Position numbers and translations under genes: made by a program | Notes under the pieces: generated by a model | The model's database searches: none | Told to the model about the DNA's origin: nothing | Seen by the model: the letters and a program-made list of their open reading frames with translations, nothing else | Shown: in pieces, positions 12,366 to 53,527 of the stretch | How positions within the stretch are numbered: position 1 is the stretch's first letter | How the letters are laid out: each line of letters starts with the position of its first letter | Assembly (NCBI RefSeq): GCF_037971845.1 | Contig: NZ_CP150227.1 | Location: forward strand, 1,798,001-1,862,000 | Direction: 5' to 3' | DNA from: Paenibacillus sp. FSL R5-0766 | GTDB taxonomy: Bacteria > Bacillota > Bacilli > Paenibacillales > Paenibacillaceae | Length of the DNA: 64,000 nucleotides

Positions 12366-12736
12366 AATCTATTCCGTTCTCTATACTCTTGGCCAGTGTC
12401 ATTTTAGGTATCTCGTTTATTATTGGCTGTATATTGCTAACGACTCAGGAGAGAAATAGTGAACTGACTCAGGCAGCAGAGCAAAAAGTATCTAATGACA
12501 AAGTATTAATGACGATTCAAGAAACTGCCGGGTATCTGAGTATGACTGAAGAACAGGTGATGAGTATTATTAAGGCTGAGCAAGGGAGTGTTACGGTGTC
12601 AGGTTTCTTTGATGGGAGAATGTTTCCGTTCATTAAGGTTCAGGATAATTTTTTTGTTAGTAGAGTGGAGTTGGATTTGTGGGTTCAGGAAGCATCTGCA
12701 AGTCACAGAAGGTATATTAATGGGCAAATGCAGTAG
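12362..12736 (+). CDS. Membrane-anchored helix-turn-helix (excisionase-like) protein
   Basis: 124 residues. An N-terminal membrane helix (about 6-26) is followed by a segment TIQETAGYLSMTEEQVMSI and FIKVQDNFFVSRVELDLWV that looks like the winged-helix fold of excisionase/MerR-type DNA-binding domains. If the helix is a signal anchor with the usual topology the domain would be outside, so it may be a repurposed fold rather than a DNA binder. ATGA overlap with the deaminase gene suggests coupling. Confidence 0.65.
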   Translation: MKSIPFSILLASVILGISFIIGCILLTTQERNSELTQAAEQKVSNDKVLMTIQETAGYLSMTEEQVMSIIKAEQGSVTVSGFFDGRMFPFIKVQDNFFVSRVELDLWVQEASASHRRYINGQMQ

Positions 12737-47144: not shown

Positions 47145-47262
47145 CTTTTTCTAAGTATAATGCCTCATGAAAAAAAAGGATGATTATGGAATTGAGTCGA
47201 AATGACGATAGAGTCCATGCTTCTGATTCATGTATAACGGTGAAACGAGGGAGTGAAGTAGC

Positions 47263-49961: not shown

Positions 49962-51182
49962 ATGCGGATCGTAGATAACATTAAAGTCTGGGGGGAGCCG
50001 CTGGAGAACGCCGTAAGTCAGGCGGTGACTTGTTCGCAATATGGAGATGTATTGGGTGTGGCTCTGATGGCCGACCATCACAAAGGTTACTCGCAACCCA
50101 TCGGTGGTGTTGTCGCTTATCGGAATATGATCAGTCCGTCAGGGGTCGGATATGATATTGCTTGTGGCAACAAGGCTGTGCGCACCAATCTGATGTGGGA
50201 AGATATTCGGGATCAGATTGTAACGATCATGGATGACATCAATTCGACCATATCTTTCGGCGTGGGTCGTAACAATCCAACACGCGTGGATCATGAACTG
50301 TTCGATGACGCGAGCTGGAAGCTGTTTGATACCATTGAACCGGGATTACAACATAAGCTGAAGACACTTGCACGCAACCAACTTGGAACCGTAGGCAGTG
50401 GTAATCATTTCGTGGATATTTTTGTGGAAGAAGCAACGGGGAAGGTGTGGATTGCAAATCATTTTGGCAGCCGCGGGTTCGGTCATAAAGTGGCGAGTGG
50501 GTTCCTTAACCTTGCCGCAGGGCGTCAGTTCAGTGGCAAAGCGCCGGGCGAATCGATGGATCAACCGCCTACGTTGTTTGACCTGAACAGCGAAATGGGT
50601 GATATGTATTGGGATGGAATGACTTTGGCGGGCCGATACGCCTATGCAGGACGCGACTATGTTATTGAACAGGTGCTCGGAATTCTGGGGGCAAGTGCTG
50701 AATACGCCGTACATAACCATCACAACTTTGCCTGGAAGGAACAACACATGGGTGAAGAGGTAGTTGTGGTCCGCAAAGGTGCAACGCCACTGGCACCCGG
50801 GCAACTCGGTTTTGTTGGAGGCAGTATGGGTGATATCTCGGTAATTGTGGAAGGGATCCACAGCGAGGAGAATACCGAGTCATTCCGTAGCACTGTTCAT
50901 GGGGCAGGGCGCACGATGAGCCGAACCCAGGCGGCTGGCAAAATGAATTACAAGCTGCGCACACGCATGGGTGGCGAGATTAGCGAAGCACAGATGCATG
51001 AGGCGATTCGTGCCTATGGTGTCGAACTGCGGGGAGCGGGCACAGACGAAAGTCCGTTTGTGTATAAGAAACTGCAAGACGTGCTGAACGCACATGCGAA
51101 TACGCTGAAAATCAACCATGTGCTGCGCCCAGTAGGCGTCGCCATGGCCGGAGGTAATGAATTCGATCCGTATAAGGATTAG
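49962..51182 (+). CDS. rtcB: RtcB-family RNA ligase
   Basis: 406 residues. Manganese-binding Cys in SPSGVGYDIACG near residue 68, histidines in TVGSGNHFVDI near 147 and ANHFGSRG near 167, VHNHHNFA near 248, and the guanylylated His in TVHGAGRTMSRTQA near 308. RtcB joins 2',3'-cyclic phosphate or 3'-phosphate RNA ends to 5'-OH ends using GTP. No rtcA or rtcR is nearby. ATG 49962 behind ATAGGAGG. Confidence 0.9.
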   Translation: MRIVDNIKVWGEPLENAVSQAVTCSQYGDVLGVALMADHHKGYSQPIGGVVAYRNMISPSGVGYDIACGNKAVRTNLMWEDIRDQIVTIMDDINSTISFGVGRNNPTRVDHELFDDASWKLFDTIEPGLQHKLKTLARNQLGTVGSGNHFVDIFVEEATGKVWIANHFGSRGFGHKVASGFLNLAAGRQFSGKAPGESMDQPPTLFDLNSEMGDMYWDGMTLAGRYAYAGRDYVIEQVLGILGASAEYAVHNHHNFAWKEQHMGEEVVVVRKGATPLAPGQLGFVGGSMGDISVIVEGIHSEENTESFRSTVHGAGRTMSRTQAAGKMNYKLRTRMGGEISEAQMHEAIRAYGVELRGAGTDESPFVYKKLQDVLNAHANTLKINHVLRPVGVAMAGGNEFDPYKD

Positions 51183-51203: not shown

Positions 51204-52410
51204 ATGAGAAATTGTGCGATATATAGCTCTCAGTTTGACCTGGATCAGCTGTTTGAAGTAATTCAATCCATTTATCCTGAGGGGACGATTAAACGCCGGG
51301 AAGACAAGACTCATATTCAAGTGATTCAGAAAAAATGGCTCAGTAAAAAAACCAAAGGCTTTAATATCATGACCAGCCAGACACATCCTGAGGAATTTAC
51401 GACAATGATTCAGGGGATGCTTGGATTTTTGAGTCAGATTGAGGGACGCAATGCTTCGCTCCAGGAAAAGGTATTGATCAAATGTTCCACACTGAATATG
51501 GTGGTTGGTATTGAGACGGAAGAGGATATATCGGAAGAATTCTTCGGCGAATTGTTGCAATTGGCTGATGCTCTGGATGCTGTTATCTTCTGGGGAGGTG
51601 GATCTCTGCTGAATGCACAAGGCCAGCTATTGCTGGATGTGAATGGAGAATCTGAGGTGGAGGATTACACGGTGACAGCGCACAGCAGTTTCCTTGACGG
51701 TGACAGCGCACAGCAGTTTCCTTGACGGTGACAGCCCCCAGTCGGAGTCTGGCATTCAACGTAAAGCGCGTTCAGAGCAACTGTTGACTGAACAAGGCAT
51801 TCCGTATAATGCGAACTTGCCTGCAAGGGCCGGAGACGAACACACCACGATTCGGAGTAAAGAGAAAGTCGCGCGTCGTGCGGTTGCCCTATGTCTTGCC
51901 GCGCTTAAGGGAGAGTGTCTGGGAGCAGGCGAAAGTGCAGACGATACCGCAGCTCTTGTTCAGGAAGTGATCGACAAGTATGAGGCCGAATCCTTTTTCT
52001 CACCCGTAGAGAAGAGGTTTATCGACCAGCACGGAGCAGAGCAGCAGGAGATCATCTCCTTCTCTTGGGGATATGAAGCGTACCACGTGATGTTGTGGGC
52101 GCTTGGTTATGTGAAGGAACTGGGTGCACCAACGGAGTTATGTAACGTAGGGAAGGATGTCGGTTATTTGCAACAGAAGGATAGCTTTACCGACTTTCTC
52201 TCCGATGCATCTCTGCGTAACAAGAGAGAGATTCTGGATGAAGCAGATCTAATCTACCGTTATAACTGGGTGTGTGTCGATAGTCGTGTGAATGAAAAAA
52301 TACCTCCCTTAGGGTTGAATGGTGGAGTGGCTTATGAACGTCATCGTGCATTGAACTGGCTGATCTGTTATCTGGATCAGGACTGGGATGATGTGCGTAC
52401 AGATACGTAG
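51204..52410 (+). pseudogene. DUF4272 protein gene split by a 28-bp tandem duplication
   Basis: The first part (51204-51725) encodes about 173 residues and stops soon after DGDSAQQFP. The second part, open in the next frame to 52410, encodes the DUF4272 core (RSEQLLTEQGIPYNANLPA, RALCLAALKG-like RAVALCLAALKG, EIISFSWGYEAYHVMLWALGY). Removing one copy of the 28-base unit joins the two into one frame of 392 residues, the normal size for this family. ATG 51204 follows AGAGGGTGA. DUF4272 function is unknown. Confidence 0.85.
51671..51735 (+). repeat. 28-bp perfect tandem duplication plus partial third unit
   Basis: The unit starting GGTGACAGCGCACAGC occurs exactly at 51671-51698 and 51699-51726, and its first nine bases begin a third time at 51727-51735. 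Twenty-eight is not a multiple of three, so each gain or loss of a unit shifts the frame of the DUF4272 gene. Confidence 0.95.
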
Positions 52411-52486: not shown

Positions 52487-53527
52487 TTACCCACTATGCC
52501 TGCCGAACTGTTCACGAATAATGACGTCAGCAAGAATTAATTTTTTCTCGACGTTGCTTTCTGGATTCGCAATGCGCCATAACATCTGATCCACTGCACG
52601 CGCACCGAGCAACTCCTTGTTCACGTTAACTGTGGCAAGTAATGGGATATTGTCGTATAGATTATCAAATCCCGTGACAACACACTGATCGGGTACACGA
52701 ATACCCATACTCTCAAGGGCTTCAATGGTGTATAGCCCATAGAAATCATTCGCACATACAAACACTTCAGGCAGGTTATCCTCACTGATCACCGAAGTGA
52801 ACGTCTGGCGGAAATCATCCAATGCCTGATTACTCAACTCGGGAATCTGATGTATTTCCATTCCATGACCCATAAGCACAGAAGTATACGCAATCCAGCG
52901 TTCATAGAAGCTATGAGCATCCGCGATATTGCCAACGAACTGGAATGTTTTGAAACCCTTGCGGAGCAAATAGAGCATGATCTCTCGCATGGATGCGAAG
53001 TTATCGGTGAATATGCTGTCACTGTGAAAAACAGGGTCCAGATGATCCACCATCACAACCGGAATACTGAGACGTTTGATTTCAAGCAGAATCGGGGTCG
53101 AGATAGAGCCAACGGTAATGATTCCTCGAATGGCATCCGGGTTGAGCAGGGTAAATAGCTGGTCTGCTGAGGGTTCCGTTAAGGTCAGAATATTAATACC
53201 TTTTTGGTTCAGCTTGGAAGAGATCCCGTTAAAGACGGGTCCCCAGTATACGGAGTCTTGATTTTGGTACCGAACATTGGGAAACAAAATCAAGATCGTC
53301 CCGGTTGAACGTGTGTTCTTCGGTTCCTGAGATTCATGGCTGTTATACAGTTCACCAGACAACATGCTGTTATCTTTGAAATATCCAAGTTTGCCAGCGG
53401 CCTTGAGAATGACATCCCTCGTTTGATCGCTAACTCCCGATTTTCCAGACAAAGCTCGTGACACCGCGAATTTCGACAAACCCGTAAAATGTGCAATCTC
53501 CTGAATTGTTACCTTTGTCTTCATCAT
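52487..53527 (-). CDS. LacI-family transcription regulator
   Basis: 346 residues. N-terminal LacI helix-turn-helix TIQEIAHFTGLSKFAVSRALSGKSGVSDQTRD, followed by a periplasmic-binding-protein-like sensor domain (GTILILFPNVRY, VVMVDHLDPVF, VFVCANDFYGLYTIEALESMGIRVPDQ). It is divergent from the carbohydrate ABC locus at 54053 and is the likely local regulator, binding an operator in the shared 525-base gap. ATG at 53527 or 53524 behind AAGGATGG on the minus strand. Confidence 0.88.
   Translation of the reverse strand: MMKTKVTIQEIAHFTGLSKFAVSRALSGKSGVSDQTRDVILKAAGKLGYFKDNSMLSGELYNSHESQEPKNTRSTGTILILFPNVRYQNQDSVYWGPVFNGISSKLNQKGINILTLTEPSADQLFTLLNPDAIRGIITVGSISTPILLEIKRLSIPVVMVDHLDPVFHSDSIFTDNFASMREIMLYLLRKGFKTFQFVGNIADAHSFYERWIAYTSVLMGHGMEIHQIPELSNQALDDFRQTFTSVISEDNLPEVFVCANDFYGLYTIEALESMGIRVPDQCVVTGFDNLYDNIPLLATVNVNKELLGARAVDQMLWRIANPESNVEKKLILADVIIREQFGRHSG

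Follow-up and report, generated by a model that had tools for sequence, protein, structure and literature searches.

In Paenibacillus sp. FSL R5-0766, a gene encoding a DUF4272 protein has very probably been split by a recent slippage event between two 11-bp direct repeats, an event that left a 28-bp tandem duplication inside the gene, whose loss appears to be tolerable and whose array could in principle collapse again; the mechanism, the functional loss and the revertibility are the parts of this reading that we infer. The features involved, which lie in the window (i.e., the whole stretch of 64,000 nucleotides that was analysed), are the following:

49962..51182, + strand: RtcB-family gene, the conserved upstream neighbour
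51204..51725, + strand: 5' piece of the split DUF4272 gene, predicted N-terminal domain, 173 aa, without Pfam match, with its stop inside the array
51669..51735, + strand: perfect tandem array with a period of 28 bp, comprising two complete copies followed by 11 bp of a third (Tandem Repeats Finder)
51669..51679, + strand: 11-bp direct repeat, copy 1, bounding the duplication (microhomology); also present in five one-unit genomes, 28 bp apart
51697..51707, + strand: 11-bp direct repeat, copy 2, the start of the duplicate unit
51725..51735, + strand: 11-bp direct repeat, copy 3, the partial third unit
51676..52410, + strand: 3' piece, in another frame, with the whole DUF4272 domain and without a clear ribosome-binding site at its first possible starts
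52487..53527, - strand: LacI-type regulator, the convergent downstream neighbour

The analysis of positions 51669-51735 with Tandem Repeats Finder gave a period of 28, 2.39 copies (reported as 2.4) and 100% matches, in full agreement with the perfect 28-bp tandem duplication described in an earlier note on this DNA. The start given there, 51671, denotes the same array in another register, and the partial copy, which the earlier note had counted as nine bases, comprises 11 bases when counted from 51669. When the window is compared with itself at a lag of 28, a run of 39 bases is obtained; at lags of 10-300, this array is the only source of a self-matching run of at least 16 bases in the window, and the longest runs in 20 first-order Markov resamples of the window over the same lags ranged from 11 to 18. 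The array is thus far beyond chance. It has perfect 28-bp copies and a bounding 11-bp direct repeat, that is, the structure by which microhomology-mediated short tandem duplications are recognized. The sole other array reported by Tandem Repeats Finder in the window is a short, imperfect 14-bp tandem repeat at 12485-12513.

The reading frame starting from the ATG at 51204 reaches a stop codon (51723-51725) within the array, and the frame of the 3' piece is open from 51676 up to the stop at 52408-52410, so that the two frames overlap at 51676-51725. As 28 is not divisible by three, a ribosome that begins at the normal start, the ATG at 51204, terminates within the array without having translated the DUF4272 domain. 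The 3' piece matches the Pfam family DUF4272 (PF14094) with an E-value of 1.1e-72 over positions 1-208 of the 208 of the profile, its 244 bits (against a curated cut-off of 27) assigning it to the family over the whole profile. Both these ORF positions and the unbroken frames of the relatives confirm that a one-base frame shift splits an otherwise intact DUF4272 gene, as had been proposed, and the proposed intact length of 392 codons agrees with that of the relatives (392 in most of them, 393 in L014-L016). The genome, a single contig of 7,001,614 bases assigned to the genus Paenibacillus, gave a single match to the 3' piece; no other copy of the gene was found in it. Over the 62 loci compared (16 of which repeat a genome), the RtcB-family gene lies upstream in at least 58 and the LacI-type gene downstream in at least 53, both counts being lower bounds because some flanks are short. 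In the more distant copies L014-L017, no RtcB-family match lies alongside within 1.5 kb of flank.

In order to compare the repeat site among relatives, its DNA was read by means of a protein anchor in 61 of the 62 loci (L014 could not be anchored). The 60 rows other than that of FSL R5-0766 include 16 in which the same genome had been fetched twice; the removal of these repeat loci and of the FSL R5-0766 locus leaves 44 distinct other genomes, 43 belonging to the genus and one outside it. All 44 have one unit, a call meaning that no second stretch of 28 bp agrees with the first at 20 or more positions. None of the relatives compared therefore carries the two-unit allele, and a search for the exact two-unit pattern in 102 loci retrieved one, that of FSL R5-0766 itself. 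The suggestion that the duplication is strain-specific is likely to be correct, in that it is private among the 44 other genomes read, in a comparison that runs between species only, with one genome each. In seven carriers of the genus beyond those read at the repeat site, the open frame spans 399 to 414 codons, and in L014 it spans 400. In five of the 44 genomes (PAMC 26794, DSM 21292, G086, G066 and OVF10; loci L003 = L037, L018 = L036, L019, L020 and L058), the exact 11-bp repeat is present twice, 28 bp apart, around one unit, so that these five are one-unit relatives with the same short repeats, as looked for in a microhomology-mediated event; the remaining 39 match the 11-bp repeat at 2 to 10 of its 11 positions.

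According to the mechanism proposed here, two 11-bp direct repeats, 28 bp apart, would have been present in the gene before the duplication, and either replication slippage or unequal sister-strand exchange between them would have copied the 28-bp interval; the same slippage could, in principle, collapse the array to one unit. Slippage between short repeats may well explain the duplication, since five one-unit genomes already hold the exact repeat at this spacing; moreover, the duplicated interval corresponds exactly to the distance between the repeats and would thus be the expected product of slippage or unequal exchange. Both copies in FSL R5-0766 contain an AGC codon, and none of the 60 other rows has AGC at that place. 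Since this private codon is common to both copies, the codon change is probably the older of the two events, barring a later homogenisation of the copies. In the gene tree, the FSL R5-0766 copy is grouped with OVF10, L004, L006, L007 and L023 (support 0.96), its branch joins the last four at a support of only 0.28, and the genomes with 11 of 11 matches do not form a single group. Among these tree neighbours, OVF10 matches the repeat at 11 of 11 positions and L004, L006, L007 and L023 at 6-8 of 11; given this loosely supported branching order and these partial matches, the state of the direct ancestor is one that we infer, and recombination among these species could blur it. Hairpin-driven slippage was discarded, the single strand folding no better than shuffled sequences (z 0.98; 165 of 200 shuffles folded at least as well). 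Nothing beyond the level of shuffled sequences emerged from scans for promoters and terminators.

As for the age of the event, the comparison with 16 relatives assigns to the FSL R5-0766 copy 13 private codons, five of which have a private amino acid; among the relatives, the private amino acids and private codons range from 0 of 9 (L025) to 8 of 11 (L022), with 2 of 2 in L019. A comparison with nine relatives gives 17 private codons, six of which change the amino acid, and three of these changes cluster near the 3' end, a weak hint that might reflect relaxed constraint or recombination. An old pseudogene is hence not supported by the private codon changes with respect to the 16 relatives, the 3' cluster of the nine-relative comparison being a weak counter-hint. 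Since no clear sign of a long decay is seen, the break appears to be recent relative to species divergence; that the event looked recent had already been remarked, and this still holds, the gene being otherwise without clear decay and the duplication being private among the other genomes read. The most likely reading is that a dispensable gene has recently been frameshifted in this lineage alone, by a change that could theoretically revert.

The distribution of the gene is in line with its being dispensable. It is present in 52 of 75 Paenibacillus genomes (FSL R5-0766 included) and absent from the other 23, and the absence from many genomes of the genus suggests that its loss is tolerable. The nearest relatives by name include P. 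xylanexedens and P. amylolyticus. In 49 of the 51 other carriers, the gene is one open frame of at least 394 codons, and two carry one-base breaks elsewhere in the gene. One of them is Paenibacillus sp. OVF10 (L058 = G075; L058:5536-6714), whose break falls at a short base run and is likely a sequencing error, as the genome is only 89% complete; the other is G064 (L030; L030:1000-1260), where one base differs at a base run close to the start and the usual start is thereby placed out of frame. Both breaks are perhaps sequencing errors. In the phylum sample, DUF4272 is rare: PF14094 was found in 2 of 199 genomes (FSL R5-0766 included, with a match at 51760-52395, i.e., G000:C1:1849760-1850395) and in none of the 14 control genomes.

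A fold model of the intact L037 protein (26 rows, mean pLDDT 66.5, pTM 0.56, hence of modest confidence) has a predicted N-terminal alpha/beta part at about residues 1-130 and a helical part, covering DUF4272, from 172 onwards; between them, the stretch 131-166 has a pLDDT below 50. The array starts after codon 155, so that the break is predicted to sit in a linker between two domains. No NCBIfam family was retrieved for either piece; PADLOC gave no match for the 3' piece, and its match to the 5' piece, with an E-value of 0.005, was taken as chance. A search of the PDB by sequence with the 3' piece returned no match at E up to 1, and a search by fold with the L037 model returned none at E 0.001 or better, the best fold rows being either large proteins that superpose poorly or small ferredoxin-like proteins, of which many are designed. 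In the library of papers searched, none contains "DUF4272".

It might be supposed that the split is functional, with the two pieces translated as separate working domains, or with a ribosomal -1 shift in the overlap yielding a long protein. The location of the break in the low-confidence stretch between the two predicted domains and the overlap of the two frames would fit such an arrangement, which is nonetheless very improbable: judged by eye, the 3' piece has no Shine-Dalgarno-like sequence before its earliest potential start codons, no XXXYYYZ heptamer occurs in any frame of the 51676-51725 overlap, and the split is shared by none of the 44 other genomes read. As neither an evident ribosome-binding site nor such a heptamer is present, the product of the DUF4272 domain is likely to be lost. 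Equally slight is the chance that the second unit is an assembly or sequencing artefact and that the real allele has one unit. The single-base breaks at short base runs that two other genomes have in this gene, resembling sequencing errors, speak for it; however, a homopolymer error would not produce a perfect 28-bp unit whose two copies share a private codon, and the genome is a single contig rated 100% complete. Furthermore, when 45 ORFs of at least 120 aa from the 12.7-kb neighbourhoods of three relatives were compared with the window, 43 matched at more than 80% identity, and no sense-strand gene body other than that of the DUF4272 gene is split, the exceptions being minus-strand ORFs overlapping genes, one split and one matched in part. 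A further exception is a one-base length difference with respect to two relatives at 47249-47252, shortly before the GTG with which a 181-aa gene starts and probably outside the coding region.

A selected contingency switch would have the same origin as the slippage event proposed here, with the addition of selection for switching, so that the gene would flip often between one and two units. The anatomy of the site permits this (long perfect direct repeats, an out-of-frame unit and 11-bp repeats in five relatives), and pneumococcal capsule genes have been reported to switch by short duplications (Waite et al. 2001, 2003, as related in passages of PMC4022640 and PMC3541774). Such a switch is nevertheless unlikely, since two units occur in none of the 44 other genomes read (one genome per species), the exact 11-bp repeat is present in just five of them, and the DUF4272 gene has no known function that would gain from switching. 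An unstable repeat tract kept across the lineage, by which contingency loci are recognized, is not seen in the 44 relatives, where no array is present. A survey of perfect arrays with periods of 10-300 in 864 kb of the same genome (the window and 40 stretches) disclosed six arrays; of the four whose gene context was examined, the 28-bp array alone breaks a gene. A 54-bp array (L085:17139-17248) keeps the frame of the collagen-like minus-strand gene that contains it, a 256-bp array of 2.3 copies (L067:8032-8626, about G000:C1 788032-788626) overlaps only ORFs of up to 143 aa, a 10-bp array is inside an unbroken 321-aa frame, and the two further arrays have 12-bp, frame-keeping periods. Genome-wide hypermutability was set aside, as none of the three other arrays checked for genes in the 864 kb breaks one. 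Of what the earlier note had proposed, the phase-variable switch is therefore unsupported, no other genome read having two units and no other gene-breaking array having been found in the 864 kb, and the reversibility by slippage or recombination is retained as a possibility arising from the anatomy of the array. It is similarly doubtful that the inherited 11-bp repeats of the linker turn the gene on and off reversibly and at low frequency in this Paenibacillus group, FSL R5-0766 having been caught in the off state.

Returning to slippage between inherited repeats, the event can be set beside known systems. Simple-sequence-repeat contingency loci undergo phase variation through homopolymers or short motifs. 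The DUF4272 array resembles them in that the repeat number sets the frame, but differs from them in having two full copies of a long unit and no multi-copy tract, with one unit in 44 of 44 relatives. Passages of PMC4022640 citing Waite et al. (2001, 2003) report the loss of the pneumococcal capsule in culture via tandem duplication and an expectation that insertions of up to nine bases revert at a low rate, and both loss and regain of the pneumococcal capsule in culture are mentioned as cited in PMC3541774. As far as these excerpts describe them, the capsule duplications (type 3 locus, cap8E and tts; Waite et al. 2001, 2003) are alike in that a short tandem duplication within an ORF silences the gene, with reversion possible through loss of one copy; unlike those treated in PMC3541774, the DUF4272 array is known here from the sequence of one genome. 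Reversible microhomology-mediated tandem duplications (MTDs) have also been described in fungi (Dan et al. 2021, as cited in part of PMC13207564); those of the fission yeast gene ssp1, as presented there, share the short bounding direct repeats, the premature stop and an inherent revertibility, whereas the DUF4272 case concerns a bacterium, has a microhomology of 11 bp and is known from one genome. PMC13410964, whose relevant portion concerns a homopolymer, was set aside as a precedent. In the library searched, no paper combines Paenibacillus, phase variation, frameshift and tandem repeat.

The mechanism is thus already known, and the DUF4272 case, although new, is an ordinary one. It illustrates clearly how a short direct repeat within a gene can open the way to a duplication that breaks it; close relatives hold this repeat while their gene is unbroken. 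For annotation it is a warning: the gene may be called as missing from such a genome, or as a pair of short proteins. Should the allele prove unstable, it would serve as an easy reporter of slippage in Paenibacillus.
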